Shown here: positions 13,089 to 60,647 of the stretch, in pieces | How positions within the stretch are numbered: position 1 is the stretch's first letter | Layout of the letters: every line of letters begins with the position of its first letter | Assembly (NCBI GenBank): GCA_946699065.1 | Contig: CAMPDV010000437.1 | Coordinates: 219,073 to 283,072, forward strand | From: Loxodes magnus | Taxonomy: Eukaryota; Ciliophora; Karyorelictea; Loxodida; Loxodidae | Length of the DNA: 64,000 bases | Reading direction: 5' to 3' | The notes under the pieces: generated by a model | Told to the model about the DNA's origin: nothing | Databases searched by the model: none | Seen by the model: only the letters and a program-made list of their open reading frames with translations | Program-made: the position numbers and the translations under genes

Positions 13089-14920
13089 TCATGCCAATAT
13101 TTATTAGACACTATCCAGTATTATTTCTTTAAATTTTTCTCTGCTTATACTATTTTAATCATCAAGATCTATTTCTTAAAATATTTCTTACATTTGCATT
13201 TCATCTAATTTGCCTCTAAAAAATTAGTAAAAATGTTTCTTTTAAATTTTGTTCGAATTTTGTGAGTCTAATATTTAAATGACTAAGTCTAATATTTTAT
13301 CTTCAATCAGGAGTTTCTTTCATTATAAGCAAGCTATTAGAAATTTATCCCATTCTAAATATCCACTATTATTAATATCTAATATCTAGAAAATTAGCTT
13401 TACTTCTTCTTTATTTGCCTTGTATTTTTCTATTTATTTGAATGACTTCAATAAATCTTTATTTGAAATTCTTCCATCTTAGTCTTAATCTATTAACTAG
13501 AATCCTTATCTTAAATCATTAAACACTTATGTATCAAGTAGCAAAGATACTATATACCAATAGATAGCTATTGTTAGTTTTTTATTCACTTCAAATTATA
13601 TTAGCTTATCTAAAAATTCTTCTAGTTAATTAGGCTAAACTTTCATTATATCACTGAACCACTTATGTCTTAAACACCTTTTAGCGCTCGGTCTTTATTA
13701 TGGTTCTACTTCCAACATCTTCTAAATCAGGTCTTTTGCGTCTTCTGATATTGAATATCATTTTTCTTATCAAAACTTTACCTTAAACTTTTTTCTATCT
13801 GATTGCGAACTTGAATGCTTTTAGTTCTTACCTACTTAGTCTTCTATATTATACGTTTTGAAAGGAAAAGATCCTACTAATAGTAAGTATAAAATAACGC
13901 CACAACTCCAAATATCACTCTTACATGAATAGTTGCCAGAGCATGTCTCAGGGGATAAATAGAGTAGAGTACCTAATATGTCTTAATTTTCTAGGGACTT
14001 CTGATTTGTTGATAGTCCAAAATCTATAATTTTTACTAGTATTTAATTAGGACTTTCAAAGTTCTAGCATAGTATATTTTCCAGTTTCAAATCTCTATGC
14101 AAAACTTCAATTGAGTGGCAATAAGAAACTCCTTGAAGAATCTATTTCATTATAATTTTGGCTTTCTATTCGCTTATTTGACACTTCTAGTTGATGACTT
14201 TTAAAAGGCTATGTCCTTTTATGAATTCAGTTACAAAGAAAGTTTTATTTTCTTCCTCGAATATTTCATAAAGCTTCATTATATTAGGGTGATTCTAAAA
14301 TTAAAAGTTACTATATTCTTCAGTATTTAGAACTCACTCTAAATTCATTTATCGTTTTTATTAGACTTCATCGTTTTTACGGCAACTTGTTTCTTACTAA
14401 GTTTATTTCTCGCCAGGTAAACCTTTCCATAGCTTCCTCTTCCTATTTGACTTAAGACTTCGTAGTTTTCTGAAAATTTAGTATTATTAATTATTATGAA
14501 ACTTGAGCTGAACAGTTAGATTTTGGCAACTGTTACAGGACTTTGGCTGTCTAATTTTTTTTTCAAAGGAGAATCCGAATTCTCATCTTAGAATAAGTTT
14601 AGCGAATATCTTTTCTTAGAGTACAAGTTTATTTTCTTATCTTTGACTGGTGATTTATCTTTTCCTACTTGTATCTCTGACTTCGAACTTATTTTATATA
14701 TAATGCTACTCTATTTTGAGATTGGATTGCTTGTTTATGGAAGAAAAATGTTTTTATCCTTCAGCTATAAAACTTCCTTAGAAGCCTGGCCTTACTTTTC
14801 AGCAATTTAATTTGTAATTTACTCAACCTGCTACTACTAGCAGATCTACTCAGTTTAAGAGCAACTAAAACAGCTTAATAAGCTTTACGTCTTTAAATTA
14901 GAGCATTTACTATTCCCCAT
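13089..14920 (-). CDS. Calcium-dependent protein kinase, CDPK-A
   Basis: Minus strand, ATG 14920 to TGA 13091-13089, 604 residues after removal of a 17-nt intron (14295-14311). The N-terminus starts MGNSKC and then has a Cys-rich SCFSCS, fitting N-myristoylation plus palmitoylation at a membrane. A polar linker of about 150 residues leads to a Ser/Thr kinase domain: IGRGSYGKV, the VAVK lysine, [11 protein letters not shown] (in IDFGLS), SPE, SDIWSCG. EF-hands follow ([22 protein letters not shown]; weaker C-terminal ones). CDPKs couple calcium binding to kinase activity and are abundant in ciliates. TGA encodes Trp at four sites (for example KWI, EKWYSIS, CLQWK); TGG is used at SDIW, where CDPK-B and -C have TGA. 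No broken motif seen. Confidence 0.9.
14295..14311 (-). other. 17-nt intron in CDPK-A
   Basis: GTAACTTTTAATTTTAG lies between codons, after the ILKNI and before the NHPN motif. It is at exactly the same place as the 17-nt introns of CDPK-B and CDPK-C. Removing it restores the kinase frame. Confidence 0.85.
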
Positions 14921-17900: not shown

Positions 17901-20900
17901 AAAGACTCAGAGTATATTTTGGCTGTGGAATCTTATTCTAATTTGAATTTTAAACTAATTTAAAGCTTATAAACTAAGAGCAAATTAATTTAAAGGAGTC
18001 TGCTTTATTATGATAATGATTATTTCTTTTATATATTGTCTAAGTTGCTATCCTTTTATTATAACACAAGCTATCTAAAGTCATATTTTGACTTGTTTAC
18101 TTATCATGAAACTGTATTCTTTAATATTGATTTTCTTAAGATTTCATGCTTTTAAAAATACCAATTATATCATAAGACAATCATAAATAAGTTAGAACTG
18201 TTTGCTAGCACTTTTTCTATTATTATAGAGTTAAGGATTTAGGTAAATTTACGACTGATTATACTAAGCATTTAGTACTCTAGTTTGCTTGCTAGTGAAG
18301 TCTAGATTTTTTCTATAAGTTTAAGAAAACCTCAAATTTATATTCTTTTTATCTGTGTAACTATCTAAATTTAGAAGCGGTTCTAGCACCTTTTATAATT
18401 AATATATAAAATACTTGCTAGAAAATTATTAAAATGAAAAAGGTTTTTAAAGTTTAAAGGGTAGTATTATAAAATTCAGCTTTAAAGCAAGCTTTGAGAA
18501 ATAAAAATTTGAAACTTCTAATTTTTTAATGTAAAAGTCTTTTAGTCACGTAGACTCAGATTTCTTATCCTTTAATTTTAAAGAAAATTTGAATGAAAAA
18601 AGCATTTTTTCATTCTCTTTAGCTTATAAAATTTAGCCTACTTATTTAAATTTAATTAAGTATGTAAAAAATTTATAAAAATTCAGTATAAAACAACCTA
18701 ATATCATTTATAATAAAGAGCTAGTTGATAAGTTATATTCCATAGAGAAAAATAAGTATTTTGCTAAGTAGTCTTTATATCAAAAATGCTTTACTAAAAA
18801 AAGTGTTAGAATAACCTGATTGATATCAAGTGGGAAATAAAAATAAGCTTTCACTTTATTACAACAAAAGATAAAATGCTTGCACTTTCTTAAAGATTAT
18901 TCAATCTTGAAAATAATAAAATTAAAAATTGCGATTTAAGAGAAGTCTTATATAAATATGATATTCTTTGATTTTAAAAGAAATCGGGGATTAAAATTTG
19001 TATTTTTAATTATAAAATACCTTCAGTTACATAATCATAAAAAATCTTTGTCCTTCACTTTTTATTATTTTAAATGATGCATTCAAAATAACGATTTAAG
19101 TTTTATCAGAAATTTTTATAAGCAAAAAAGGATCTATTAAACTACTAATTTGATTCTCAGGTTTTAAAGGTTTCACTGCTTTTTAGTTTTATGAACTAAG
19201 TGTAATTTTTTTTAATTCTTGCTTTAAAATTTTTAATTTATGTTTGCTATATTTCGAATATTATTGCAATTATTCAAATTTTTGTGATTTCCAGGTTTTT
19301 TTATTTATCTCGTTCTTTCACATCTTTAATCAACTTTTTACTAATTTTGCTTACCTCTTTAAAAATATATTTCCATTAGATTTTTAAGTTTAGATTTTTA
19401 TTTGTTTCTTGCTTTTAATACTTAAGAAATCAGCCTAAGATTTTTATCAAGCATTTATAGTTAGAATTTTATGTTACCAATAATTTAAAAGGCATAATAT
19501 TTTTCTGATATCTCTTTTTTACCTTGCTTTATCTATTTTTCTTTAATAAGATAAATTCTTTCAGATTTTTAAATTTGTCTCATAAAGTTTTAAATTCCTT
19601 ATATATTCAGAATCTGTCCTAAATTTTCAACCGAGCTTTGATTCTTATATATGACTTTTCGATTAAATTCTACCAATCACAATTACCAAATTATTAGCCC
19701 CCTTATTTTAATTTTTTTCGTTGATATCTCTCAGTATATAAGTCATATTGGGGTATCTTTCTCTTAATTATTCGTAATATCTAAAGAAACCTTTTATGAA
19801 TGATGCTTGCCCTAAAAAATGAGGTTTATAAATTATTAACTAAGAGCTTAAAACTAGACAATATAAAAATGAGACTAAATTTAAAAAAATGACTTATATA
19901 ACAACAAGTAAAGAATTAATAAAAGAATAAAAATTAATTTATAGACTAAGAACGCAATTAATATTTTTTAAAGCTGATCTCTCAGAAAGACATATTGATT
20001 AAGAGTAGATACTATGCATTTGTTATCCATAAGAAAAATTTGAACACGTCTTTGATTGCTAGTATTGCAGATAAATTATATAGGAAAACAGTCTTCAGAT
20101 ACAAGAAAAATTATAAAACTTACACATAAACATAAATCTGAAAAGAAGGAAATAATAAATATACAATAAACAATGAAACTAATAAAAAATAGAGAAAAAT
20201 TTAAAAGAAATGGTAGAATATAATCAAATATTAATAAATTAAGAAACAAAAAAGAATAAATAAATCCTAGAAGATATTGATCTTAAGATTAAAAAAACAT
20301 GGTCTAGCATAAAACAAAAACATTAACAAATAACTTGATTCTAAGAATGTTTGAGGGGAAAATAAATCCATTAGTAATATTTGAATAAAGAAGATTTAAA
20401 ATAATTATTTTTAGAATGAACAAAGATACAAGAAGAAGAGAAACTAAACTAAAAAAAATCAAATAAAAACAATAATGAAGACCTAAGAGTTTCAGAATGA
20501 GAGTGATTCATAAAAATTATTTGATTAAGCTGAAAGGCGAATATTATTTAATTTAATTTAATTTAAGAGCTTAAAATAATCTATCTTCTCACCTTTTTAA
20601 TAAAATCCTTTTACTATATTCATTATTCAAAATTTCATATTAAAGCGTCCAAAAACACTGAACTTTCTTGATATTAAGTAATATAATAAATTTTTATTTG
20701 ATTTCTAAGTATAAATTATTTCATAGATATTAATAAAACCAAACCTTTGCTAATTTTTTTCAAAATGCTTATCTAATTAAGCAAATATATGAATAAGCTA
20801 TTAAAAAGAGATGATTAAGCTTTCTATAACTTTTAATAATTTGAAGAAGGAAATTTAAATGAAAGCCTATAAAAACTCATGTATATCTTTACTCTGTCTT

Positions 20901-21204
20901 TGAAGATATCAGATAATTGGTAAGATATTGTTAAATATTATCGTATCATTTCAATAGTTTTTGATCTCTTTAAGCTAATTACCATTTGCTAGAAATATTT
21001 GCTTCAGGTATCTTTCTTAACAATTATATTTAATTTAAATATTATAATATCTTATTCCCTTTATTTAAAGGAAGTTATAAAGTGTTATATATGATAGTTG
21101 ATATAAGTTTCTTTGATTAAGAAGATTATAGTTAGTAAAGAAATTTTATTTCTTTATTTTAAGTTAAAATAAAATATTTATACAACTTTCAGTTCAAATT
21201 AACT
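14921..21204. other. Long unresolved region with coding-like minus-strand segments
   Basis: No complete gene could be assembled. On the minus strand, 15000-17200 gives leucine-rich pieces (SLNFLALVLQKGIIKQIPKL; KLSKLKLIKLNFISI) that recall the F-box/LRR family, in changing frames. About 17300-19780 gives lysine/glutamine-rich coding-like segments (KHKLKILKQELKK; AKENEKMLFSFKFSLKLK) with several frame changes. These may be one or two decayed genes, or multi-intron genes. From 20686 onward the sequence belongs to the right inverted-repeat arm. Confidence 0.3.
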
Positions 21205-23190
21205 TCACTCAAAATAAATTTCCGTTTTTTCTATTTCTTTTTAGTAAACTCCAATGTTTATCTTTTTAAATTTATTCTTAATTTCTTTAATTCACTCCTA
21301 GCTAATTGATGAGCACATATATAAGTCTAAAGATCTTAAGTTATTATAAATAGGACAAACTAGGCCTTATTCATCTTTTAAAGGAAATCCATTTTCAGTA
21401 ATATCTTTATTTTGACTTAAATCCAACTTGTTAAGAAACTTGCAGTTTTATATTAACTATGCTACTTATGAATCCTTTAGAGAGAAAAATCTTAAGCTTA
21501 ACTATTTTAGTCTTTATATTCTAACTATATCTTAGATTCAGTTTTCTCCATCTACTTTACATTCTTCTAAAACTTCTAATTATTGACAGTTCTAGCTCAG
21601 AATTTCTAGAGTCTCTTTCTTAATTTCCTTAATAGCTTTTAACTCAATATGCTTAAGCAATTTACAATTTTAAAAAATGAATCTAAGTGTCTCATCTTTT
21701 ATGCAATTAATGCTTTAGATTGTTATTTACTCATACTTAACTCCATAAACTCCTATCTTTTAAAGTGTTTCATTTGTAATTTACTTTAGCTCTGATAATC
21801 ATAGCTTTTATAACCCAGGTGTATTTTTAAGCAAGAGACTCAAGTTATCATCGTTAAAGAAAGGGCAGTTCTTAATCCTTACAAAAGTCAGCTTGGTCCA
21901 TTATTTTGAGAAGAAATGAGTAAAGGAGTTGTTACTGAAGTTGGCTATTCAAATTGAAAGGTATTCTAAATTTCTATTTCTAAGTGTTTATAAAATATTA
22001 TCTGAAGAACTCTAAACTCTAAATAAATCGATAACCTTTAAGTTAGTGCATAAATCTATAAATTAATCAACTTCTTGGTTTCGGTTTATTTCTATGTTTT
22101 CAATTAAGTTTCCTTTTACCTCTAGAAATTGTCTTATATACCTATAGTCTACTTCTTTACTTTTAATGACTAGAGTCTTTAAATTTAAATTCTAGCAATA
22201 ATCTACCAGAAACTTACCTTTAACCTGTTTGATTTAATACAGCTAAAGAAATTCAAGTTTTGATACATTTTCTATGAACTGAAATTATTAGTCTTGTAAA
22301 ATGAATTCTGAAAGTGTTAACTTTTATAAGTTCTAGCATAGTAAAATATCAGGCAGAGTAACACTAGAAGGTCAATTATGAATTTAGATTTCTTATATTC
22401 TAACTGGCTTGCTTTGGCTTTAATTGTTCTGATTGAATAAAATACACTTATTAAACATTAGCTGGATTTATGTACACAAACTGTCTTTTAACTATCCAGC
22501 ATTTATTAATATTTGGGACACATTTGAGTGAGCAATCTATCTGAAAATTCATTCAAATTTATTTTAAGTATTCTAATAATTAACCTTTCTACTCTTCTGT
22601 ATCTTGAGTCTTTTAAAATTGTAGCAAAATTGATTAAGATATTTGCTTTATTATTGGAGTCTGCAAATATCCCTTTTCTTTAAGAACTAGAATATTTGAT
22701 TAAGTATGTTTTTATTCTTTCAAATGTAGGTTTGTTGAACATTGTGCTTACTTTAATCTTATGTTTGTATAATTTCTTAACTACATTGAATTAAGTTGCT
22801 ATCAGTTAATTTCACATCTTAGTGGCATTTCTACCATTTTAATTTATTCTCAGGATCCCTATATAAATCAAAGCATCCTTAGCAGATATAATCTCCACAT
22901 TATAGTATATATAGGCACCTTTCTCTAGACCTACTACAAAAGTTGCAAATCTACTATGTAGGTAAATTCATTTTTCTAATTATTTTAGTTTTCTTAGATT
23001 TAATCTATAAATCTGTTTAAAAATAAGAAAATAGTTAGATTAAGTTTAAGTGAGGATATTAATAAATTATCAGATTTAAAAAGGAAACAAATAGCTTAGC
23101 TTATGATTCAATGAAAGGCTCACTGCAATTATTTTTAAGTTTGTAGTCTATTGTTAATACTTAAAAAAAGTTGGTTTTAAACGGAGATAT
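20686..23190. repeat. Right arm of the 2.5-kb inverted repeat
   Basis: Reverse complement of 1-2505, including the complete F-box/LRR gene. From 21208 rightwards it is also the left part of the 11.15-kb direct duplication, so this locus exists three times in the window. Confidence 0.93.
21205..22971 (-). CDS. Zinc-finger / F-box / leucine-rich repeat protein, copy 2
   Basis: Exact inverted counterpart of the gene at 220-1986: ATG 22971-22969, TGA 21207-21205, 588 residues, no intron. It has the same Cys cluster (residues 9-33), F-box (about 88-120) and LRR array, and seven TGA-encoded Trp. It probably acts as an SCF-type ubiquitin-ligase adaptor, by architecture only. It is transcribed away from CDPK-B1. 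The stop codon coincides with the edge of the direct duplication, so this copy keeps the original stop while copy 3 has lost it. Confidence 0.8.
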
Positions 23191-25479
23191 TTATGATATC
23201 TTAGATGAACGAAACTTATCATTTCAGTTATTGATTTAAAAGAAATAATTAGCAAAGAAGATTTCAAAGGAAATTGAAAAATATATTCAGTCAGAGTGGA
23301 CTATAGGGTGCTTTGTAGATTGTTAGAATTAACTAAAGACAAGAGAGTTATTTTGAAAATTATTACATCTTTTAGAAAGAACTTAGTACTATTTAAAAAT
23401 GATTTATTTTAAATGTTGTAGTCGCTTAATGGTAAGCTTGCTCAATCGGTAAAAAATGAAAAATAAATATAATAAACAGCGATATAAAAACTTCTATCGG
23501 AATGAATGAAGAATATAAATAGAAAAGCAGCACAATCTTCAAAATTGAATGCTTCTATTTCTAAACAATTAGGAAATGTTTAAGTTACAATTATAAGTTG
23601 CTTAAACAAACATTAAGATTAGAAGTTATATCTTAATTTATTTAAAGACTCATATGATTATCATATTGTTAACAATATCTCTTTAAAATAGAAATCAAAT
23701 TAGAAATTTTCTAGTTTCATAAATTAAAAACAGCCACCATAGTTAAAAATAAGTGACTTGTCATAATATTTATCCTTTCAACTTCTAAATTTACCTAATT
23801 ATAGTAATCCTTAAATCTAAAATTTCCAATCCTAGTAATTATTTTTTTAATTGATAACTATTAATCTTAACTTAAGCAGAAGATATACCAAAAAGATTAA
23901 AAACCTTCTTTCCCACCCATTTTATCATTTTAAAAAGTATTTTCATTTATAAACAAGAAGATAGCTATTAATGATCGAAACTTTAAATCAACTTAAGTTT
24001 CTGCTATCGTTATAGACTTTTTCACTTCTTTCAAAAATAATAAATTTGACTTAATATAATTTTAAGATTAAGGATTGCTTTATTATTGAAAAGCTAGTCT
24101 AAGAGATTATTATAAACGTAGAACTAAAATTAAAAGCAGAGTATTCTTAATACATATTAGTAAGGGCTTTGCTAAGCATTCTAATCATTTTTAGAATTTA
24201 AAATTTCTATTATGCTAAGAAGATTGAACTTGAACATTATGAATCATGCTTACTAAACTTAAATTTTCAGTGCTAATAACCTAGAGCAAAAGGTTGATTT
24301 TGCTTCATTAGCAGATCCCTCTATTTCTTCTTAATTTCTCTCCATAATGATACTTTCCTCTTGCCTTCCCTTTTTTAATTATCTTCTTAAATCCTTTGAT
24401 AAACAAGGTTAGAAGTAATAAAAATGACTAGTACAATAAATTTAGAATTAGTAAGGCAAAAATTTAAATTTAAAGTGATGAGTTAAATTTTATTAGACTA
24501 TGAGATGTAAATTAAATGGCTTTATATAAAGTGGTTTTAATAATGATTAGTAGGATATCAAAAACAAATGAACGTTTGCTTCATAATCTAGAAAGAAATT
24601 CCTTTAAATAGACTGCAAAGAGGAACTATGAATATTAAGTAGTTTAAGAGCCTTATAATATAATGCAGGATACAATCGAAAATTTACTATTCTCAGAATT
24701 GAAGTTAAAATAATTAAAGATTAATTATAATATAGCAACTTATGGAAATTAAAGAAAGGAAGTTGGCAGAAATATGATAAATGTTGCATAATATCTACTT
24801 GTATTAAATTAGCAAATATCAAAGAGATATTAAATTTGCTTAACTAAGAACAAATTTCAACTCCTTACGCACAATTTTTTTAAATTTTATGAATGTTGAA
24901 ATTTTTTTCCGTTCTTAAAACCATAAAAGCATTAAGAATATTTCTTATTCTCTTAAAATGTTTAGAATAAATGGTCCAATGTGAATATATCATATATCTA
25001 AGAAGCTATTCCTTCTAGTTTAAAAAAGTATCTATATGTTTACCAAAAAACAAGGAATTAAGGAGAAACATTTTGCTCTTTCAAAATAGATTAGTAAACG
25101 ATAGAGATGGGAACTATTTTAAGTTCCTTTTAAACTCGAGTGATACATTTATCAAACTCTAGTAGGCTTTTTTAAAGATAATATAATTGAATCCTTTAAG
25201 AATAATTTAAGTCTTATAAAAAGGAGATTAATTGAGGTCTTAGCCTGATAATGTTTTAAATAGCTAAATTATGTAGCTTTTAGATAATTATTCTCTCAAA
25301 TTAAAAAAATCAGCATTAGTCAATCTCAGTTTAAGCAGTGCATTAAGATATTAAAATTTGTTCTGTTTGTCTTCGCAAAAGCATAATTAGAGTTTTTTTC
25401 TAGTATAGGAATCAGATTTATAAGCATAAGTAATGAAAATTAAATAATATTAACTTAATTTTACTGTTAAAAAACAGGT
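22972..25479. other. Upstream region of F-box/LRR copy 2, unresolved
   Basis: No confident gene. From an ATG at about 24424 one plus-strand frame reads long with roughly chance numbers of TGA, but copy 3 has a one-base insertion near 46452 that shifts it. It is therefore either non-coding or carries an error in one copy. Confidence 0.3.
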
Positions 25480-26200
25480 AAGAAGAGATTTTAAATCTAG
25501 AGTCTAACTTAGAAGGTAAATTAAGAAATGCTTTAGAAGAAATAAATGAACTGAAGAATGAAATAGAAGTACTAGCTAACTTATGAAATCTACTAGACTT
25601 ATATTAAGCATCTGCTACTTCTACAGATTTATAAGTATATTCATCCAAATATTGCTTAAAGAGATGTAAGATGCTAGAAAGTAAGGATAATGCTAAAGGG
25701 TATAATTAAAGTTAAAGCAAATTAATAGAAAATTTGACTTTCTTAATAAGCAGGAATTGATTAGTCGTAAAATAAAGCAGCTTAGCATACTAAGATATTT
25801 ATAATTTGTCACCTCAACTTAAATAGTTATAGGTCGCTTATTTTACGAATATTTAAATGTTCAAATTTACCATTTTCATTGGAAAATTGGTTATAAGCTT
25901 AGTTATTAAAATCATTTTAAGAATTAAACTTCAACGAACTTTAAGTTCAGCAAACTTTAAAAAAGTCATCAAATTTCATTAACTAATAATCTTAAAAAAG
26001 CATTTCTAAGATAAAAAATAAGTGTATACATTTAATAGAGAAAAAGATATATTATACTAGCACTTAAAGGCAAAATTCCTCATAAATGCTTAACATTTCT
26101 AGGAGAGATGAAAATTAAGTAAATAGCAGTACTTACGACAGCAAAATTCTATTTAGAATAAATAAAAAAAGAGCAAACTTAATGTAGTTACATTTTAAAA
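25480..26200 (+). CDS. Coiled-coil coding stretch upstream of CDPK-B1
   Basis: The plus strand reads a clear heptad-repeat segment (EEILNLESNLEGKLRNALE, INELKNEIEVLANL), then KQELISRKIKQLSILRYL in a second frame, and a polar stretch (NSSQMLNISRRDENQVNS) in a third. Tiny introns like those of the neighbouring genes are the likely cause, but I could not place them all. Differences between this and the second copy include GGA/GGG and TAA/TAG changes that would be silent in these frames. The start and stop are not defined. It ends just before CDPK-B1, in the same direction. No family recognised. Confidence 0.38.
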
Positions 26201-26246
26201 GATGTGTATTAAAAAATTAATTAAATAACTATTTATTTAGATAAAG

Positions 26247-28060
26247 ATGGGAAGCTGCCAAGACTCAGGTTAAAAGGCCTAGAATCTTTTTACCTGCTTC
26301 AGTTGTTCTTAAGGTGAACAACTTATCTAGTAGTAGCAGAATGATTAAATAGCTAAGTTAGTCTTAGAAAAATAAAATTAAGACTGTAAGGAAGTCAAGA
26401 AAGCTTTGATTATAACAACTCCATTACCTCATGCAAAAGACGAAAAAGCAAAAGGAGTAAGTACTTTAAAAAAAACAGATTCAAATTTACTTAGATTAGC
26501 TGATTGAGATTAAGCTCTATCTAAAGAACAGCTCACAAGTACTGGCATAAAAAAAAATTAGATTACTAACTAAAACTCAGACTTAGGCTCAGAATCTCCT
26601 TTAAAGAAAATGCTAGAACGAAAAAGTCCTCTATCTACTTGGAAATTCTAAATAAGTAGCTCTAGCTTCATATAAATTAACAATAATAAGTTTTCTTAAA
26701 ATTATGAACTAGCATAATAAATAGGCGAAGGTAGCTTCGGTAAAGTTCATTTAGCTAAAAACAAGTTAAGCTAAAAGTTAGTTGCTGTTAAAACTACAAG
26801 ATCTATCTAAAACTGCAAGTGAATTTAAAGAGAATTTTAAATACTAAAATTAATAGTAACTTTTTTATTTAGACTCATCCTTATATAATGAAGCTTTACG
26901 AAATATTCGAAGAGGAGGACAAAACTTTTTTCGTAACTGAATATATAAATGGATATACTTTAAGTAAATTACTATACCAAAATAATATAATAAATGAGTA
27001 AAAGGCTAAAGTTATAATGAAATAGGTTCTTTAAGGAGTCTCTTATTGTCACTCAATTGGTGTCTTACATAGAGACTTAAAGCTGGAAAATATTCTATGC
27101 TATAACTAAAAGAATTTGGACTAAATATAAGTCAAAATAATAGACTTTGGGTTTTCTATAAATTAGTTACGGCTAGAAGATTAAAATATAATAGGAACTC
27201 TAAACTATTTATCTCCTGAGTCTATTTAAGGCTACTATTCATGCAAAAGTGATATATGAAGTTGCGGAGTCATTCTATTCCTACTTCTAGCTGGGTATTT
27301 CCCCTTTAAAAAGTATAATATAGAAAAATACCTTTAGAATAGATAAAAGCTAAAGTAAGATTAGGAAACTTTCAAAAAGTTATGGGTAAAGTTCAGACAT
27401 GAAAGATGGTATGAAATATCAGAGTAAGCTAAAGATTTAATAGAGAAAATGCTTACAATAAATTAACATCAAAGGCCCAGGGCTAAACAATGTCTCAGGC
27501 ATGAATGGTTTAGCGATATAATGAAAGTAGAACTTAACTTGGTAGAGGAATCTATAGAAAAGTTACTTCAATTTTCAGTATAGAGGAAAATAGCCATAGC
27601 TATATACTGGTATATAGTTTCCTAATTAATAGACACCTAAGAATTTAATGACTTAAAGCAAGGATTTATTTCATTAGATAGAGATTAGGATGGAAGGATT
27701 TCTCACAAAGACTTATTAAAATCTTTCAAAAAAGTAGAAAAGTATAAAGTAAGTAAAGAAGAAGGAAAATAGATTTTTAACATTTTAGATATAAATAATA
27801 GTGGATATTTAGAATGGGATAAGTTTCTTATAGCTTGCTTATAATGGAACTAAATTCTAGTAGAAGATAAAATACTTGACCAAGTAATCTAAATATTAGC
27901 CCCTAAAAACTAAATAAGCATAGAAAGACAAAAATTTTACTAGTTCTTTAGTGGAAAGCTAGATGAAGAATAGATAGAAGATCTTTTATAAGAAATTTAG
28001 TTTGATGAGAAAAATAGCATAAGTACAGAGTAGTTTAGAGAAATGATGCTAGAATAGTGA
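26247..28060 (+). CDS. Calcium-dependent protein kinase, CDPK-B copy 1
   Basis: ATG 26247 to TGA 28058-28060; 598 residues once the 17-nt intron 26856-26872 is removed. MGSC plus FTCFSCS at the N-terminus fits myristoylation and palmitoylation. The kinase domain runs from about residue 154 to 415: IGEGSFGKV 159-167, VAVK Lys182, HRDLK 269-273, DFG 294-296, SPE 317-319. EF-hands are DRDQDGRISHKD (472-483) and [12 protein letters not shown] (509-520), then a degenerate third and a partial fourth (from about 581). The expected role is a calcium-activated Ser/Thr kinase at a membrane. Three Trp codons are TGA (ADWD, CKWI and invariant SDIW, residue 332); seven are TGG. The first two features are shared with CDPK-A, which is clearly paralogous along the whole length. 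Confidence 0.9.
26856..26872 (+). other. 17-nt intron in CDPK-B copy 1
   Basis: GTAACTTTTTTATTTAG between the codons for ILKLI and THPY. It shares position, phase and length with the introns of CDPK-A and CDPK-C; removing it restores the frame. Confidence 0.88.
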
Positions 28061-28182
28061 AGATTAATTAACAAATCATTTAATATTATATTAATTTAGA
28101 TAGTTAAAATAGATATAGATAGTACTCTATTTAATCTAAACTTAAATAAATGTATAAATAACATTTTATAATTCAAAAATAA

Positions 28183-29448: not shown

Positions 29449-29712
29449 TTAAATCAAAAAGACAAGCTTACATAGTTTTCTTAGTTTGATCTTAATATTT
29501 CTTCACACTTCATAGTATTTATTAAGGCTACTAAAAAGATTGTTATTGGTTAACTTTCCTCAAATATCTATTATAATGGATTGAAGTAAGCATTGTTCTT
29601 TAATTTTTGCTTCAAGTGATTTTTAAGTCTATTTAACTAAATGGCTGCTATATTCTTACTATTTTCTATTTAGTCTCCTTTAATTTTTTATTTACACTGA
29701 GACAAATAAAAA

Positions 29713-29785
29713 TGTCGGTGCAGAGACTTGAACTCCGGTTTCGACGGCCACAACGTCGTGCCCTAACCACCTAGACTACACCGAC
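29713..29785 (-). tRNA. tRNA-His (GUG), copy 2
   Basis: The same 73-nt sequence as at 7566-7638: GTG anticodon in a TTGTGGC loop, seven-base acceptor stem, discriminator A, T5 terminator right after the 3' end. Part of the duplicated block. Confidence 0.93.
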
Positions 29786-31111: not shown

Positions 31112-32245
<1,134 letters not shown>

Positions 32246-32280
32246 GTGAGTGAAGGAGAATAAGAAGGAAGACTTTCAAG

Positions 32281-47798: not shown

Positions 47799-47844
47799 GA
47801 TGTGTATTAAAAATTTAATTAAATAACTATTTATTTAGATAAAG

Positions 47845-49658
47845 ATGGGAAATTGTCCAGACTCAGATTAAAAGGCCTAGAATCTCTTTACCTGCTTTAG
47901 TTGTTCTTAAGGTGAACAACTTATCTAGTAGTAGCAGAATGATTAAATGGCTAAGCTAGTCTTAGAAAAATAAAATTAAGACTGTAAGGAAGTCAAGAAA
48001 GCTTTGATTATAACAACTCCATTACCTCATGCAAAAGACGAAAAAGCAAAAGGAGTAAGTACTTTAAAAAAAACAGATTCAAATTTACTTAGATTAGCTG
48101 ATTGAGATTAAGCTCTATCTAAAGAACAGCTCACAAGTACTGGCATAAAAAAAAATTAGATTACTAACTAAAACTCAGACTTAGGCTCAGAATCTCCTTT
48201 AAAGAAAATGCTAGAAAGAAAAAGTCCTCTATCTGCTTGGAAATTCTAAATAAGTAGCTCTAGCTTCATATAAATTAACAATAATAAGTTTTCTTAAAAT
48301 TATGAACTAGCATAATAAATAGGCGAAGGTAGCTTCGGTAAAGTTCATTTAGCTAAAAACAAGTTAAGCTAAAAGTTAGTTGCTGTTAAAACGACAAGAT
48401 CTATCTAAAGCTGCAAGTGAATTTAAAGAGAATTTTAAATACTAAAATTAATAGTAACTTTTTTATTTAGACTCATCCTTATATAATGAAGCTTTACGAA
48501 ATATTCGAAGAGGAGGACAAAACTTTTTTCGTAGCTGAGTATATAAATGGATATACTTTAAGTAAATTACTATACCAAAATAATATAATAAATGAGTAAA
48601 AGGCTAAAGTTATAATGAAATAGGTTCTTTAAGGAGTCTCTTATTGTCACTCAATTGGTGTCTTACATAGAGACTTAAAGCTGGAAAATATTCTATGCTA
48701 TAACTAAAAGAATTTGGACTAAATATAAGTCAAAATAATAGACTTTGGGTTTTCTATAAATTAATTACGGCTAGAAGATTAAAATATAATAGGAACTCTA
48801 AACTATTTATCTCCTGAGTCTATTTAAGGCTACTATTCATGCAAAAGTGATATATGAAGTTGCGGAGTCATTCTATTCCTACTTCTAGCTGGGTATTTCC
48901 CCTTTAAAAAGTATAATATAGAAAAATACCTTTAGAATAGATAAAAGCTAAAGTAAGAGTAGGAAACTTTCAAAAAGTTATGGGTAAAGTTCAGACATGA
49001 AAGATGGTATGAAATATCAGAGTAAGCTAAAGATTTAATAGAGAAAATGCTTACAATAAATTAACATCAAAGACCTAGGGCTAAACAATGTCTCAGGCAC
49101 GAATGGTTTAGCGATATAATGAAAGTAGAACCTAACTTGGTAGAGGAATCTATAGAAAAGTTACTTCAATTTTCAGTATAGAGGAAAATAGCCATAGCTA
49201 TATACTGGTATATAGTTTCCTAATTAATAGACACCTAAGAATTTAATGACTTAAAGCAAGGATTTATTTCATTAGATAGAGATTAGGATGGAAGGATTTC
49301 TCACAAAGACTTACTAAAATCTTTCAAAAAAGTAGAAAAGTATAAAGTAAGTAAAGAAGAAGGAAAATAGATTTTTAACATTTTAGATATAAATAATAGT
49401 GGATATTTAGAATGGGATAAGTTTCTTATAGCTTGCTTATAATGGAACTAAATTCTAGTAGAAGATAAAATACTTGACCAAGTAATCTAAATATTAGCCC
49501 CTAAAAACTAAATAATCATAGAAAAACAAAAATTTTACTAGTTCTTTAGTGGAAAGCTAGATGAAGAATAGATAGAAGATCTTTTATAAGAAATTTAGTT
49601 TGATGAGAAAAATAGCATAAGTACAGAGTAGTTTAGAGAAATGATGCTAGAATAGTGA
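47845..49658 (+). CDS. Calcium-dependent protein kinase, CDPK-B copy 2
   Basis: ATG 47845 to TGA 49656-49658, 598 residues after removal of the 17-nt intron 48454-48470. It starts MGNC, a textbook dual-acylation motif, where copy 1 has MGSC. The kinase core ([23 protein letters not shown]) and EF-hands match copy 1. Differences cluster in the N-terminal linker (for example Gln to Pro at residue 5 and Ile to Met in the coil) and are few elsewhere. TGA again encodes the invariant Trp of SDIW (48855-48857). It probably acts redundantly with copy 1 as a membrane-attached calcium-regulated kinase. Confidence 0.9.
48454..48470 (+). other. 17-nt intron in CDPK-B copy 2
   Basis: Identical to the intron of copy 1 (GTAACTTTTTTATTTAG). 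Confidence 0.88.
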
Positions 49659-49780
49659 AGATTAATTAACAAATCATTTAATATTATATTAATTTAGATA
49701 GTCAAAATAGATATAGATAGTACTCTATTTAATCTAAACTTAAATAAATGTATAAATAACATTTTATAATTCAAAAATAA

Positions 49781-51046
49781 TCAAACAATGATGAATAAAG
49801 AAAAGAAAAGGAAACAAGCTTTATATTTATTCCAAAATATAAGATAAACATTTTCATTTATTTTGTCTTTCTTAAATAGCAAATTAGTTATATAAGATAA
49901 AGACTTAATGAACCAAAACAAAACTTTTGAAAATCTAAAGATCTATTAGACTAGCATTTCTGTTTATTTCCATTTATATTTATTTTATAGTTTATCAGAT
50001 TAGCTTCTTTATTCTCTAAAATACTCTTTATTTCTCCATTATTTACAGTTTTAATAACTAAAGAGCATTTATCTCCATTGCTATTTAACATAATTGATAA
50101 TATATTAGCTTTCCACATTCCATATGATTTTCTCTTTTAGTTTGAAGCTTTTATTCATGTTAGTTACTATCTCTATAAATAAAACCATTTTACTTTCAAT
50201 TTTTAATCTCATTTACTTTGATATTTTTATCCAAAACTCTAAATTTAGAGAATTAAGGATAATCTTTTTTGCTTGATGTAGCATTTAAATAGCAAAAAAG
50301 TAGATTACTTAGATAAGATTTATAATAAGACTCTTCAGTGCTAAGTGTTCTTGTACATTCCTGTAGTTAATGTATATTCTAAGTTTATATTATGGTGATA
50401 TCATATTTCTGCTTAGAAATTGTAGTTAAGCAAAATTAGTAACCTTAGCTTGATATATTGATCCTAATAACAAATATAAGGCTTTATAACTCTCCAAATA
50501 TTAAAAATGCTATTAAGCTATTTTTGCTTAAAAGAAGTTTAGCTTGTAAGATCGTATTTTAGTAATAATCATACAACATATTTTCCAAATATAAGCATAG
50601 TCTATTATTTATTTTACTACTGTATTAAAAACTAAGCTTTGCTAATAAGTTGTCTCATGTGTATTGTTATTAAACTACGATTGATTTATTATAGGATTAT
50701 CATATGAAAATATATTAATTAGATTAAAATAACTAAGGCTTATGAATAAAAGCTTTTGGCTTATTATTGCTTCAATCATTCTGGATCTTATGCTGCTCTC
50801 TAGTCATTATGGTCTTTATGATCTTGAAATAGCAGGTAAAAATTATCTCATAGTAGAATCTTCAGTCACTCACAGCTGTTGATCTATCTCACTCCTAATT
50901 TAAAAAGCACTGCTTAGTGAAAAAATATGGAAATTAAAATTTCTTAAAATTACAAATCTAAGCATTTGGCAAAATTTAGTATTTGCCTTTTCTGAAATGG
51001 AATATACTTCTCTTATTACTAAAATGAAAAATATGATTATTAGCAT
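49781..51046 (-). CDS. Hypothetical protein with N-terminal hydrophobic helix, copy 2
   Basis: Second copy of 28183-29448: ATG 51046-51044, TGA 49783-49781, 421 codons, same signal-anchor-like start. Differences seen are CAA/CAG (silent) and Lys/Arg, which argues for selection on the protein. Frame also open upstream to the tRNA. Function unknown. Confidence 0.55.
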
Positions 51047-51310
51047 TTAAATCAAAAAGACAAGCTTACATAGTTTTCTTAGTTTGATCTTAATATTTCT
51101 TCACACTTCATAGTATTTATTAAGGCTACTAAAAAGATTGTTATTGGTTAACTTTCCTCAAATATCTATTATAATGGATTGAAGTAAGCATTGTTCTTTA
51201 ATTTTTGCTTCAAGTGATTTTTAAGTCTATTTAACTAAATGGCTGCTATATTCTTACTATTTTCTATTTAGTCTCCTTTAATTTTTTATTTACACTGAGA
51301 CAAATAAAAA

Positions 51311-51383
51311 TGTCGGTGCAGAGACTTGAACTCCGGTTTCGACGGCCACAACGTCGTGCCCTAACCACCTAGACTACACCGAC
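51311..51383 (-). tRNA. tRNA-His (GUG), copy 3
   Basis: Identical cloverleaf to the other two copies, with GTG anticodon, discriminator A and T5 terminator. Confidence 0.93.
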
Positions 51384-52569
51384 TTATTATATATATAATG
51401 ATCTATATAAATATACAAATATAATACTTACACTTATATTATATCAAATCATAGTGGCAAAAGCATACTAAGGATATCTAAAAAAGAAGGATGCTATTAG
51501 AAAGAAAAATTAGCATGTTTATCTAAAATTAATGATAGTTAGTAAGAATGAAGCTTTCTACATTCACTAGTAATTATAAGTATAAAAGCAAAGCCATAAT
51601 TAAGTCTGCTTTTTTAGTAGCTTTAGCGTAATTTCTTATACCAGAGGATGAAATTATATAGTGCTATTATTATTTTTAATAGTGCTTAGTGAAGAAAATG
51701 ATGTGCTAGTATATTTAGAGATAATAATAACTTCATTAAGAGTTTGATGCTTAATAATTAACTACTTAAAAGCTATTTAGTCTAATTTATAAAATAAATA
51801 GCATTATAAGATTCTCCAATACCACTAATTTCAAACTCAAATTATGTCTTAATTAAGTCATCAAGCCTAAACTAATTTACAAACAAGTACATCCATAAAA
51901 ATTTAGTTTATATAAGATCCGAGTAATCAGTCTTTTATGACATTAAAGGAACTATCTTATTTCTATGAAAATGAATAGTTATTTAATTAAATATATCCTT
52001 ACATCAATTAATAAACCTTTTATACTTAGAAAAGCTAAATTTTTATTTTCTAAATTATTAGATCCAAAAGTAAGGAAAATGCATAAAAAATAGAATATGG
52101 TTAATAAGTAAAATTGCTTAGGATTTTATATTTTATCTAGAAAAGTCAAACAAAACTTCTCTTTATTGTATCTATTTGAAAATAACTTTATTTGCTTATT
52201 TTAAAATTATTGATTCCTCTAAGTTGCATTATATGAAATTAATTAGCTAAATAAAAAATTAACTTGTAGAAAATAAAAAGGAACAGTTAAGAACATTTTT
52301 AAAAGTTCAAGAACTATAAATGTGATGCTGTCAATTATAAAGTGATAGTTAAATGAAAGATACAAATTAAATTTAGACTTTATGGCTTTAGTGATTTAAA
52401 AAATTATCTGTGTATTTAATCTCCAACTAGACAATTTTTATTTAATATACAATAAAGCTTAATCTAAATTGTTAAATACTTTATTTAAAATAATTAAGAG
52501 AAGCTTTAAATATTAAATTTGAATCTTTTGCAACTAAAGCTTTTAAAAATAATCATAATTAACATACTC
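51384..52569. other. Spacer between tRNA-His and actin copy 3
   Basis: No gene seen; near-identical to 29786-30970. Confidence 0.5.
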
Positions 52570-52710
52570 CATACTTCTATTCGTTTCTGGTATATCTTCT
52601 TTATCATATCTGGCTCCGTTTACTCTCTTAATTATTATATGACTATTTTAAAATTGGTAAACGGAATTAATAATGATTTAAAAGATGAATTTGCTATACT
52701 TTTATAAAAA
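52570..52710 (+). promoter_or_regulatory. Conserved actin upstream block, copy 3
   Basis: Same conserved block; 9-bp inverted repeat at 52615-52623 and 52657-52665. Confidence 0.5.
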
Positions 52711-53844
<1,134 letters not shown>

Positions 53845-53879
53845 GTGAGCGAAGGAGAATTAGAAGGAAGACTTTCAAG

Positions 53880-53905
53880 AGGAAATAAACTTTGAGTTTA
53901 TTCCT
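53880..53905 (+). terminator. Hairpin downstream of actin copy 3
   Basis: Same stem-loop as after copy 1, TTG loop. Confidence 0.5.
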
Positions 53906-53958
53906 GAATTAAGCTTCTTTCGAAACATTTATTTTATTACTTCCCAAAATATTTTAAA

Positions 53959-55559
53959 GCTAAGTACTTATTTATACTTTTTAACTTTTGCAAGAAAAAT
54001 TTATTTTCTTTCTTGTAGATAATAAATCTTGACTTATAAGATGCTACTTATTATTTAAAATAGAGAGTAGCAAGGTTTAATAATGATTGTAGAGAATTAT
54101 CTTTAAACATTACTAAACTAGAAAATTCTATTTGTGAAACTAATTTTTATAAAGCCTGAATAATTTTAAATAGCCATCTAATAATTTTCTATAGCTTTAT
54201 CTAATTCTTAAAATATACTCATATTGATAAAGTTAAAAAAGCATTCTTAAAATAATTGTTTTTTATCAAGTGATAATAAATCTTTATTTAGAATAAATAT
54301 TTTAGATGATAGCTTGACTTATTTTTTAGCTTTATCTCTTTAAACTTTCTTTAAGACATCAGAAGATTCCATAATAAAGATTCCTTTAGTTTCAAGTATA
54401 ATTTAACTTTATGAGATTGATGGTACAAAATTTTATTTCCAAGTTTAGCTTTTTAAGTGATAATACTTTTGCTTCTGTTTATATTAATTTAAACTGAAGA
54501 TACTACTCCAGACTTATAGTTTTAATATATATCCATTCCTCAAAAGTTTGAAGCTGTTTGATTTAACTTTTTGCTTAAAAATTGCAAGAAGCATTGTAAG
54601 TTTCTAACTCAATTGGATTATTAAAGTCACTTACATAAAGTAAAATAAAATAGGTATTTTGACTTTCATATCTACTTGCTCTTCTTCCTATAAGTAAAGT
54701 GAAGACAGATTAAGATTAGATTTGGTTATTTAGAATAGAATTAGTATTTAGTAAGGACAAATAGCCTCAAGCAAAATAGATGAGAAATATATAATACTGC
54801 TATGTCATCACTAACAAGGTATAGACTCAAAGGCTAGTTATTAGGTAATTTACTAAAGGGGTAATAAAAACAGTGGCTTAATAAATGAAGCAGGTACTAA
54901 TAATTTCTTCCTTATTGCTTCAAGAATCTATAAATGTACCAAGTATCGATTAAATAATAAATGATATTCAAAGACTCTTTTAGCCAGGCTTAGAACATTT
55001 ATTATACTTAAAGAATAATCTTATTATATGTTGGAATAGATATAGTAGAATAGAATTGACAGGATAGTGCTTATACTTTAAATTTAGGATTCAATTGAAG
55101 GTTTTGGAGATTAGGTAAAGAATACTCTATTGGAATTAAATTATTGAAGCAACATAGTTAAAATTCGTATTTAAATAACTCAGACTTTTATTGGTTAACC
55201 ATTAAAAAGGAAAGGCAAAATAGCTTTTTAAATACAGATTGATAAGGTAATCACTTAGAGATATTTTAAATACCATAGTAGGAGAAGATGATAGTTATCC
55301 TCTAGCTATTTCAGTAAATATTTTGACTTTAAGTCCTTAGAATTAACTATCTCAAGAGGAAGTTATCTATCAGAGTTAACTTAAGCTGAGGACAAATTTA
55401 TTTGAAACCTTAGTGTACTATAGCAAGCTTACTCCATTAGAACCCTTTTCCTTTTTCGAAGCTATACTTTATTATTAGGTTTTAAATGTGTTAATGGAGA
55501 TAGAGAAATAGAAAGTATCTTTAATTAAAATTTCTAAGCTTAAAGAAAGAATTTCCAAT
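53959..55559. other. Unresolved region after actin copy 3
   Basis: No gene could be delimited. Patches on the plus strand look coding-like, but frames change often. Confidence 0.25.
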
Positions 55560-56687
55560 TAAAGAGATTGATTTTAATCAGATACCTAGTTTATAGAGTA
55601 TTTGCCTTAAATTTGATAACAAAATTGAATAGAGATCTGGTTATAATACAATAGATTTTAAGCTACTAACTTGAACTTGAAATAAGTTAAACCATCCTTC
55701 AAAAAGTATTTTCAGGGATGGATATTTTTCATTTCCATTAACTTCAAAAATTTAAAAGATACCATTCTACTGTCTCTACCAAGAATAGACTTATTCATTT
55801 TAGTACTCTTCCTAAGTTTAAGCCAAAGCACATAATAACTTTCTATTATATATTAATAAAACTTATCTATAAAAATGAAATTATCTAACACTTTACTTAC
55901 TAAATTCGTTCTTGGAGAGACCTTAAAAGCTTATTACTTTATACTAAGAAACTTTATTACAATGGTCTTTATCTTTAAATCACTATAATAGGTTTAAAAA
56001 AATCTTAAGGATGATTTAAATAGATAAAGTAAGAGATTTTATAAATGACAAGAGTCTTAATATTTAAAGCTTCATTTTAATTCTTAAACTATTGCCTTCA
56101 ATAATACTTAGTCCGCTCTAGGTTTATATAACTTTCGTTTAAAGATTCTGATTTATAATGTTGAGTGAAGAGATATTACTAGAGCTTATCTAATAGTCTT
56201 TCGTTTAGATATCTAAGAAAAATTAGAGTTTTATATACAATCTGTTAAAATACCTTTTCAGAAGGATGCTAATACTGCTATCATTCTAAGAAAGATATTA
56301 AATAGTTTTTACTATAGTTTACTAATGACTAAATCTGCTTTAAACTAAGTATATTTCAACACAAGAAGTATTAAATCACACAAATGGAAATTTTACTTTT
56401 AGTCATCTATTTTAACTTTTTCATTTAGAGCAGCAGGATTTTCTTTCGAGGATATAGAAGTTGATTGAGGGGAGTAGACAAAATTGAAATTCCTTGATTT
56501 TCTTACAATAGTAAAAGAGACAAAGCCTTTATTAACTGAAGCTATTATATAAGAGAAAGAGCTATTAAAGCATAGATTATTTAATAGGCTTTATTAGCAT
56601 ATACTACAGCTAAATTTGAAACAGATACAGTTTAAAGAAAAAGCAGAAAGTCCTCTGTATTATTAAAAGCTTAGCCCGAAAAAATGA
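55560..56687 (+). pseudogene. LRR-like coding remnants or multi-intron gene
   Basis: The plus strand carries long TGA-poor, protein-like segments: IPSLQSICLKFDNKIEQ, then WRDLKSLLLYTKKLYYNG, then EKLEFYIQSVKIPFQKDAN and AAGFSFEDIEVDWGEQ, running to TGA 56685-56687. They lie in different frames. The leucine spacing of the first part recalls the LRR family here; the last part does not. Exons could not be joined with confidence, so this may be one broken gene or two. Confidence 0.33.
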
Positions 56688-56869
56688 AATATATTAATCT
56701 AATTATAATCAAATGATATAACTTAAATCAATATCCTAAGATAATATGGAGACAAAATTTAGAGAAGAAGGTAAGAAATATAAGGAAAGAAGGATAATAA
56801 TAAAGCTACTATATTACTACTAATTAAATAGATTGAATTTAGATATAATAGTTATACTATTAGTTTTGG

Positions 56870-58780
56870 ATATATATAAAATCCAATTCTTAATTGGTGC
56901 ATTCTTCTAATTTAGTCATATTTATTCATCGTTTAACTGATTCTTCTGAGAGACTTCGGTAAATTCTTATTTCTGTCTTATAGAAATAGATTTGTAGTCA
57001 AATTATATAAGCTATTTTTCTATTGAGGACATGTATACTTGCTACAATCAATTTATTAACTAGAACCCTGCATATTATGATTAGAGTATGCTTGTATTAT
57101 TTCTCACAAAGATCTGATTTCATTAATCAAATATAAAGCTGATAAGCTTCTATTCAAATTAATAATCAGCTTTCTAAATTTTTGCTATGCTTAATTCAGT
57201 CAAAATATGATGATAAATATCTTCACTGTTTTGATTGCTCACTGATTCTTACTCTCCAAAAGCTATAACTTATATAATATGCTGCTTAATTATATTGAAG
57301 ATAGAGATAATAGTTAATAGATTTAATAGCTTTAGTTTAGCTCTCTTTCTTTTCTATCTAATAACCAACCTTATCAAATTTTTCATCTTTAGCCTATTTT
57401 ATTCTAGGTAGAATTAAATGACTTAGTTTCAATAGAAATTATCCTACTTATAATTAGATTAATTATTGAGGAAGTCTAAAATACTTTGTATAGGAGGCTT
57501 AAGGTATTTTGTTTTCAGACCTGCAAAGAATCGCTTATTTATTTTACCTTTTATGTAGTTATTAGTTAGTAAATCTCTAAGCTCTTTTTAACAAAGTAGA
57601 GCTAAAAGAAGCTTTAGAAATTTAATGCTTGAGTATAGTTGCAAATTCCATAAGTAGATAGAGTGAAATTATACCTTAAGCTTAAAAATTTAATCTCTCA
57701 GCAAAAAATAAAATATACTTACTTAGTTATAGCGAGGGTACTATAAGGTAACTTTATTAAAAATAGAAATCATTTTATCTCATCAAAGATTTAAAATGAT
57801 AGAACATATATAGTGATACTTTAGTTTATTAGGCCTTAAAATTAAAATTTTAGCCATTCTCAAGTTTTTAAAAAATCTTCCTTCTTAATTTTACCTGCCA
57901 ATTAATCTCTTTTCTGTTGAGTATATTAGAGTCTTAATAACTATTGCTTAGAAATCCAAACTCTTGGCTTTAATATTGATTTACCTTAAAAGCAATAAGC
58001 TGATTATTTGATTTCAAGTATTTTTATCAGAAAGGCTTATTAAAGTATCTTACAGACTTTAATGAGTTAATTTCTAGTACATTAAGGTTATTAACTCCTT
58101 CCTCACATTTATCAGCTTCTTTTATATGTAATTTAGTTTAAGGTTCACTCTGGTCAGTCAACTAATTAAGTATAATTTCTTGAAGCTAAAAGGCTACGAT
58201 GCAATATTTAGCTACAATAGGTAGATATTTAATTCTTTACGGCCTTCTTCTTTGTTTCAAGCAAACAATCGATAGTTCATATATTCGCTTTATTTCAAAG
58301 AGTCAAAAATAAACTATTAGGTTACTCAGAAAAATTAAAAGGGATAAGAAGTTTTAAGACAGTCAATAAGCTTTAAAGAGTACTTTCTTAAAGCTTAAAA
58401 TATATAATAAATGAGACTTAGGAAGTATTATGTTGCTTCAGTTTTTTGGTAAAAAGAAGTCTAATCAACTTATTTAGAGTATGTAAAACTATAAAAAGAT
58501 CAGAATTTTGAAGATTTTATGGGACTATGATGAAACTGAGGAAGTATAAGCTTATCATATCTGAATCTTTAAAGCTAAGAAATTATATAGTTCTTAGATT
58601 CTAAAGTAATAGTTAAAAAATTTAATTTCCAGACTTTAATACTCCTAATTTCATAATAAAGCTTGCATTAGGATGCTATTAGTAGTATTTATCTGCATCA
58701 TTATCACACCTAAAACACTTTTTAGTTTTAACCTTTATATGGTGTATTAAAATAAACTGTTGAAGCAAATGAAGATATTA
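56870..58780 (-). pseudogene. LRR-like coding remnants, minus strand
   Basis: Minus-strand reading gives NNLNVLEINSLKSVRYFNK and further Leu-rich and Gln-rich segments (HQISKASFSSTLLKRAQRF; RIKQAKDEKFDKVGYQIEK), with the modest TGA counts expected of coding DNA. Its position directly downstream of CDPK-C and its composition suggest another member of the F-box/LRR group, but no F-box or Cys cluster was found and limits are approximate. Confidence 0.33.
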
Positions 58781-58839
58781 AAGAGATTTTCTAAATTGTT
58801 AATATTTAACTTAATACTAAGTAAAATAAAAGTTCCTTT

Positions 58840-60647
58840 TCACTGTTCTAGCATCATTCTCTTGAAATATTCAGTACTGATGCAATCCTTGTCGTCAAAT
58901 TAAATTTCTTAAACTATCTCCTTTACATGCTCTTTTTCTAGCTTACCTTTAAAGAATCTATAGAAGTATTTCTTGTGTATTTTGTTCTTCTTTTTTAAAT
59001 TTAATTTCTAAATAACAAGATCAAGATACTAGCTATTCTTTAAGATCTAGTCTCACTATAAACAAGCAATTAGAAACTTGTTTCATTCTAAGTATCCACT
59101 ATTGTTAATATCCAAAGAGTTAAATATTTCTTTAGCTTCTTCTTTCTTTACCTTTACTTTGTACACTGTTTTTAAAGATTTAATCAGATCTTTCAAAGAA
59201 ATTCTTCCATCTTAATCGTAATCGATAAAAGTGAAGATATTTCTAATATGAATTTTTTCTTATGGATCCATTAACTAGGAAACAATATATCAGTAGACTG
59301 CTATTTTTATTCTCTTGCTTACCTGAAAGCTTAGCATCCTTTCTATATACTCTCCAAGCAAGTTGAAGTTAATCTTTATTGAGCTTTTGAATCATTCATG
59401 CTTTAAAGCTTTTTAAGCGCTAATTCTTTCATATGGGATTTACTTCTAGCATTTTAATAATTAGATCTTTTGCTTATTCGGATATTTATAATCATTCTTT
59501 TTCTTCAAATTTAACTCTAAATGCCTTAGCTTTACTTTCTAAGCTTTGAAGTTTATTTTATGTTCTATATAAAAGTTTTTATTTCTTGGTTGCTAAAAGG
59601 AAATTCTCGTGATAGAAGCACATACATTATGACTCCACAACTTCAAATGTCACTCTTTATTGAATATTCTCCAGAATAAGATTCAGGAGCAAGATATTAT
59701 GGCGTTCCTGCTATTCTTTTTCCCTCAATTTAATCTTGGGCTATGGATAATCCAAAGTCTATTATTTTGACACACATGTTTTCATTATCTTCTATATTCT
59801 AGCATATGATATTATCAAGCTTAAGATCTCTATGTAAGATACCATTGGAATGAAAAATATGCCACCCCTTATAAAACTTACTTCATTATAGTCATAGTCT
59901 TTAACTAGTCAAATTGACTGCCTTGATTCATCAATTCTACTAAAGTTTATCCACTAATATATTCAGTGACAAATTGAGTATATTACTCCTCCTCGTATAT
60001 TCCAAATAGCTTTACAATATTAGGATGATCCTGAATAATTAACTTACAAACCTTTTAAGTATTTTATACTCTCTCCTAATTAATTATTTATCCTACTAAG
60101 CATTTATTATTTTAATAGCATAGGTTTTCTCATCAATTTGCTCTTTCCTATAAATACTTTCCCAAAGTTACCCTATCCAATCTATTTTTCCAGCTTGTAT
60201 TTATTTTAAAATTTGCTCTTATTTTTCTAGACAAATGAAGAACTGTTGATATTGAGTTTGAAGTCCTATAAAGGCCTGAGACTTAAAGCTCTCTTTTAGA
60301 AGTAAGTTCTGCTAAGATTTTTAGAAATAGGATTATAGTTAAAGGATTAGTTAGGTTAAGCACTTCCTTATTATATAAGATCTATACCTTAATCATTAAA
60401 AGTCTAAGATTGAAACAACTTTATAAGCTTTTTACTTTCTATCTTTCAACTAAAGCTTTTCAGATTAATTATCACCAAACTCAGCCTCCTTATCACCATA
60501 ATTTCCAGCCTACTATGAAAAAAATTCTTACTAACTCACAACTTAATCCATCGTCTATTCCAACTACATGCACTGTTACTAGTTTTTTTACAAAAAGCAC
60601 TTAGTAAAGCAGTTAGCAAAAGCTTCTTGGTATTAATAGTTCCCCAT
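58840..60647 (-). pseudogene. CDPK-C, calcium-dependent protein kinase with frameshifts
   Basis: Minus strand, ATG 60647 (MGNY, then Cys-rich) to TGA 58842-58840. Kinase motifs IGQGNFGKV, YAIK, LHRDLKLDN, IDFGLS, APES, SDIWSCG and EF-hands ([19 protein letters not shown]) are all recognisable. Introns proposed at 60404-60419 (16 nt), 60031-60047 (17 nt, conserved position) and 59517-59535 (19 nt) fix three frame changes. Three others remain as single-base indels: about 60145 (one A missing), 59855 (one T extra in T5) and 59434 (one A extra). TGA stands at six Trp sites, including SDIW, YWYI and LEWN. It is either a recent pseudogene or an intact gene with homopolymer errors. Confidence 0.75.
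60031..60047 (-). other. 17-nt intron in CDPK-C
   Basis: GTAAGTTAATTATTCAG between YKILKRF and DHPNI, at the same position as in CDPK-A and -B, though the sequence differs. Confidence 0.8.

Follow-up and report, generated by a model that had tools for sequence, protein, structure and literature searches.

TGA as tryptophan codon and usual stop in kinase genes of the karyorelict ciliate Loxodes magnus

Background

Can one and the same codon, TGA, stand for tryptophan inside the genes of a ciliate and for stop at their ends, and can this be read from a small set of paralogous genes? This is the question raised by the window, a stretch of 64,000 nucleotides of Loxodes magnus DNA that carries four CDPK copies, CDPK-A, -B1, -B2 and -C (Table 1). 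A codon that serves both as amino acid and as stop challenges the notion of fixed codon meaning and has to be accounted for by gene finders. Judged from its sequence, the window is almost certainly macronuclear DNA of a karyorelict that uses NCBI code 27, in which UAA and UAG encode Gln while UGA encodes Trp inside genes and is the usual stop at their end. This is no new code, as the ambiguous UGA code of L. magnus is already published: the passages of PMC11441545 that deal with it assign table 27 to Loxodes and name UGA as the only stop in L. magnus. Our reading shows no difference in kind from that description and shares with it UAA and UAG as Gln, UGA as Trp or stop, and the 17-nt modal intron. 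What is added here is independent confirmation from paralogues and from kinase alignments across the genome, together with gene counts for two forms of tRNA-Trp, which make a dosage model testable.

Table 1. Coordinates of the features discussed; positions refer to the window unless a contig is named
Feature	Position	Strand	Remarks
CDPK-A	13089..14920	-	604 codons, end set at TGA 13091-13089; sense TGA at 14347, 13772, 13760, 13322; TGG at 13910, 13661, 13559, 13352
CDPK-A intron	14295..14311	-	17 nt, GT..AG; kinase frame kept after its removal
CDPK-A TAA TAA pair	13101..13106	-	candidate UAA stop, one codon past homologous end of relatives
CDPK-B1	26247..28060	+	sense TGA at 26505, 26820, 27257; stop TGA 28058
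CDPK-B1 intron	26856..26872	+	17 nt, GT..AG
CDPK-B2	47845..49658	+	repeat copy of CDPK-B1, same 17-nt intron
CDPK-C	58840..60647	-	three frame changes; in-frame TGA at 60395, 59645, 59494, 59394, 59292, 59085, 59055; last TGA 58842
CDPK-C intron	60031..60047	-	17 nt, GT..AG; place and length as in A and B
SDIWSCG site	A 13910-13908; B1 27257-27259; B2 48855-48857; C 59645-59643		A TGG; B1, B2 and C TGA
KWYSIS site	A 13760; B 27407; C 59494		A TGA; B TGG; C TGA
YWYIV site	A 13559; B 27608; C 59292		A TGG; B TGG; C TGA
LEWDKF site	A 13352; B 27815; C 59085		A TGG; B TGG; C TGA
CLQW site	A 13322; B 27845; C 59055		A TGA; B TGG; C TGA
HKWF/HEWF site	A 13661; B 27506; C 59394		A TGG; B TGG; C TGA
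Actin copy 1	8995..10128	+	ends HRKCF-TGA (10126); 4 TGG, no sense TGA
Actin copy 2	31112..32245	+	ends HRKCF-TGA (32243); 4 TGG, no sense TGA
Actin copy 3	52711..53844	+	ends HRKCF-TGA (53842); 4 TGG, no sense TGA
tRNA-His(GTG), three copies	7566-7638; 29713-29785; 51311-51383	-
tRNA-Trp(CCA) tandem array (L106)	C67:482318-491167		48 copies
tRNA-Trp(CCA) tandem array (L107 + L108)	C148:155459-171821		62 copies
Direct repeat	21011-32359 / 42604-53958		11.3 kb, about 99% identity (98.9-99.1%), 21.6 kb apart; holds B1/B2
Inverted repeat	1-2642 / 20570-23190		97.8% identity
Otubain-like match	38729-39646	+	weak, below Pfam cut-off

Results and discussion

TGA and TGG at corresponding sites of the CDPK paralogues

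CDPK-A, -B and -C share a short GT..AG intron at one common position, and its length is the modal one given for L. magnus introns in PMC11441545. The intron of CDPK-C is one of four GT..AG candidates and was picked because its position and length agree with those of the A and B introns. No GT-AG intron explains the three frame changes of CDPK-C, and this copy is either broken or mis-assembled. CDPK-B1 and -B2, which differ at 23 codons of their coding sequence (12 silent, 11 not), are parts of near-identical repeat copies in which TGA and TGG occupy matching positions, so that the two count as one observation. The CDPK family as a whole is very large, with 150 places scored among 305 candidates in the genome, several of them on the contig of the window itself (C437). 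At the scored places the number of in-frame TGAs in a C-terminal match ranges from 0 to 5, a count that sometimes includes the stop.

The original prediction compared these paralogues site by site, naming TGG in CDPK-A and TGA in the three other copies for the invariant kinase Trp of SDIWSCG, and an alternation of the two codons at five further sites. The codons at the SDIWSCG site are exactly those named, and all codons of the five further sites were verified as well. The argument is thus right in substance but overstates the number of independent comparisons, and at the YWYIV, LEWDKF and HEWF sites it is the broken CDPK-C that supplies the alternation. The intact genes A and B differ in their choice between TGA and TGG at three columns (13910/27257, 13760/27407 and 13322/27845), and at a fourth (14347/26820) both have TGA and CDPK-C has Leu. 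For some TGAs a Trp partner is absent: TGA 13772 of CDPK-A faces Arg in B and Glu in C, and TGA 26505 of CDPK-B faces Lys in A and Arg in C. TGA 60395 of CDPK-C stands opposite Val in A and Ala in B. The other six of the seven CDPK-C TGAs all fall on the seven columns, among 577, that have Trp in both A and B (P ~1e-12), which argues that CDPK-C evolved as coding sequence.

TGA at gene ends and the stop of CDPK-A

Where, then, do these genes end? TGA stands at the expected place in 14 of 15 ends, several of which belong to close copies: those of three actins, two eRF1 genes and nine of ten CDPKs. The three actin copies are related, and their ends amount to about one observation. The two eRF1 paralogues, both on contig C196, end in DEDFL-TGA and have four Trp codons each, all TGG. 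At the homologous CDPK end TGA is found in B1, B2 and C and in all six relatives retrieved of the 150 listed, and in four CDPK ends (B1, B2, L134 and L139) it is directly preceded by TAG. Depletion of UGA and UAA over roughly the last 20 codons ahead of the stop is a feature of the karyorelict code. The nearest sense TGA lies 77, 267 and 71 codons from the gene end in CDPK-A, -B and -C, respectively, distances that come from these three genes only.

The end that deviates is that of CDPK-A, which has GTC where its relatives have TGA, continues with TAA TAA (13106, 13103) and reaches a TGA (13091) five codons after the first TAA. None of the six relatives has TAA within its last 14 codons, and a depletion of UAA just before stops in L. 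magnus is described in PMC11441545. Since the TAA pair follows the place of the relatives' TGA by one codon, the stop of CDPK-A is uncertain, and the gene may end at UAA rather than at its TGA. Accordingly, the earlier statement that TGA closes every intact gene is correct for the three actins, B1 and B2 but not secure for CDPK-A. Seah et al. are said to have described a minority of UAA stops in 2022, and a UAA end of CDPK-A would fit with this.

Would such an end speak for a code of the Condylostoma type, in which UAA, UAG and UGA can each be sense or stop? In Condylostoma magnum, as in the genome studied here, UGA is read as Trp and as stop depending on position (PMC4967479); all three codons can stop there, whereas no clear TAA or TAG stop is seen in our 15 ends. 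The TAA TAA of CDPK-A, one codon past the homologous end and with TGA only later, is what can be said for this code. It is opposed by the TGA that holds the expected place in all other ends, close copies though several of these are, by the TAG codons that immediately precede TGA in B1, B2, L134 and L139, and by the published L. magnus code, in which PMC11441545 gives UGA as sole stop. We thus consider a Condylostoma-type code very improbable, and the contrast with Condylostoma drawn in the original prediction is borne out by 14 of the ends and left in doubt by one. The Blastocrithidia nonstop code, where UAR is Glu and the stop is UAA, differs from that of this genome too.

TGA in kinase domains across the genome

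But are the kinases that carry TGA genuine genes? If they were pseudogenes, TGA could be a stop and nothing else in this ciliate. The three frame changes of CDPK-C, unexplained by introns, would be in keeping with this, as would the size of the CDPK family and the 11 non-silent as compared to 12 silent codon differences between B1 and B2. The comparison of CDPK-A with the intact CDPK-B speaks against it: over 598 aligned codons, with 360 identical residues, dN/dS is about 0.11, a value that is rough because silent divergence is near saturation (pS 0.73) and that argues for constraint on TGA-bearing genes.

Kinase domains from the whole assembly (705,730,643 bases in 7,843 contigs; the published macronuclear assembly is given as 706 Mbp in PMC11441545) contradict it. 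The first 60 by rank of 136 scored domains, drawn from 5,592 candidates, were aligned after a translation in which X stood for each of the three stop codons. Redundancy in this set is small, as identity is above 90% in just 8 of 1,770 pairs and has a median of 36%. Among the 15,335 codons are 55 TGA and 103 TGG, and the two are enriched almost equally in Trp columns, TGA 73-fold and TGG 80-fold, a count from which 15 TGAs in sparse columns were excluded. The 40 TGAs in well-filled columns divide into 25 with a Trp consensus, 8 with no consensus and 7 with another residue. The SDIW column alone holds 36 TGG, 18 TGA and 6 Tyr or Phe (n=60), and in the two PDB kinases displayed Trp stands opposite the TGA of B1, which was masked as X. 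TGA also occurs in a frame that we take to be transaminase-like (L069), beside a gene that is presumably pelota-like, where TGWKIG-TGA-CIGP has it at a place at which we assume such enzymes to have Trp. As random decay would scatter TGAs and would not give them a preference for Trp columns nearly equal to that of TGG, we regard the pseudogene explanation as highly unlikely. That UGA encodes selenocysteine, as it also can in such codes according to PMC4967479, or some other residue at these sites is scarcely credible, since the TGA columns show Trp and, more weakly, Phe and Tyr, with Cys outside the five most enriched residues.

The same alignments bear on the two other codons. Gln is the residue most enriched in the columns of TAA (3.95-fold) and TAG (4.41-fold), as compared to 5.69-fold for the CAA control, although it makes up just 6-7% of the residues in the TAA and TAG columns, because kinase Gln is poorly conserved. 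The ambiguous UGA code of karyorelicts, to which the original prediction had assigned this DNA, is therefore supported from two sides, by the genome-wide kinase alignments for Trp and by the gene ends fixed through homology for stop.

tRNA-Trp genes, eRF1 and a possible role of gene dosage

How would UGA be read as Trp under this code? A tRNA-Trp(UCA) had been proposed as an object of search along with changes in eRF1. The search for the first, which covered C32 loops, gave 23 matches as compared to 32 in the backwards control, and ARAGORN recognised none of the 23 as a tRNA. By contrast with its own control, the pattern search of the genome for tRNA-Trp(CCA) gave 130 matches versus 20. The copies in two tandem arrays (Table 1) and on contig C110 account for 112 of these matches; of the remaining 18, the two examined, on C12 and C33, gave no tRNA. 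In 110 of the 112 copies examined a mismatch at 27:43 (conventional tRNA numbering, assigned by hand) leaves the anticodon stem with only 4 bp; the mismatch is A27.C43 in all 48 copies on C67 and U27.C43 in all 62 on C148, the latter count being a lower bound as the array may extend beyond the stretch retrieved. The other two (L102 and L103, on C110) are canonical, with five anticodon-stem pairs. The tandem units measure about 187 bp on C67 and 241 bp on C148.

A tRNA-Trp with a 4-bp stem is already on record for Loxodes (PMC13092985, citing Swart et al. 2024; PMC12005148, citing Swart et al. 2023). Neither the proportion of tRNA-Trp genes, 110 unpinned as compared to 2 canonical, nor the end of CDPK-A was encountered in print, and a search with supplements and subscription journals outside its scope found no published report of tRNA arrays in Loxodes. 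Tandem arrangement as such is not special to tRNA-Trp, an idea that we reject because tRNA matches of equal score are regularly spaced on C103, C158 and C78 too (at 527, 1752 and 1753 bp, respectively; 63 of 42,786 candidates scored).

The two intact eRF1 paralogues (L070 and L071) lie 35 kb apart, each as one open frame from ATG to TGA; NIKS and GGQ are kept, and relative to human eRF1 the aligned L070 shows E55A, T58R, S60Q, S70A and Y125F, with the same motifs in L071.

From published work we infer the following course of events. The 4-bp-stem tRNA-Trp(CCA) would read UGA by loosened third-position pairing and, inside the mRNA, would outcompete eRF1 at this codon. Near the poly(A) tail eRF1 would prevail, so that the meaning of UGA would be set by its position in the transcript. 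This follows the proposal in PMC4967479 (Swart et al. 2016) that translation is the default and that eRF1 gains the upper hand where the transcript is about to end. Going further, and only as a speculation that we hold to be rather doubtful, the sense reading of UGA might be set by tRNA dosage: the 4-bp-stem tRNA-Trp(CCA) would have multiplied to 110 or more tandem genes, in one array with A27.C43 and another with U27.C43, and the canonical 5-bp form would have been kept at about two genes for UGG. The same tentative model would have CDPK-A end at UAA, with an occasional stop meaning of UAA being kept.

Repeats and other content of the window

CDPK-C was the sole hit at E up to 0.001 when 1-8900, 32300-42199 and 53900-63849 were scanned with Pfam in six frames. 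The regions 8901-32299 and 42200-53899 were scanned in chosen pieces only, and further genes may be missed there. The otubain-like match is the lone one from ten further selected pieces. A codon-usage scan trained on kinases missed the A-rich CDPKs and picked up actin and two weak short segments. Actin and tRNA-His occur in three copies each in the window, which also contains a direct and an inverted repeat (Table 1), and these large repeats may reflect either biological duplication or the assembly of haplotypes.
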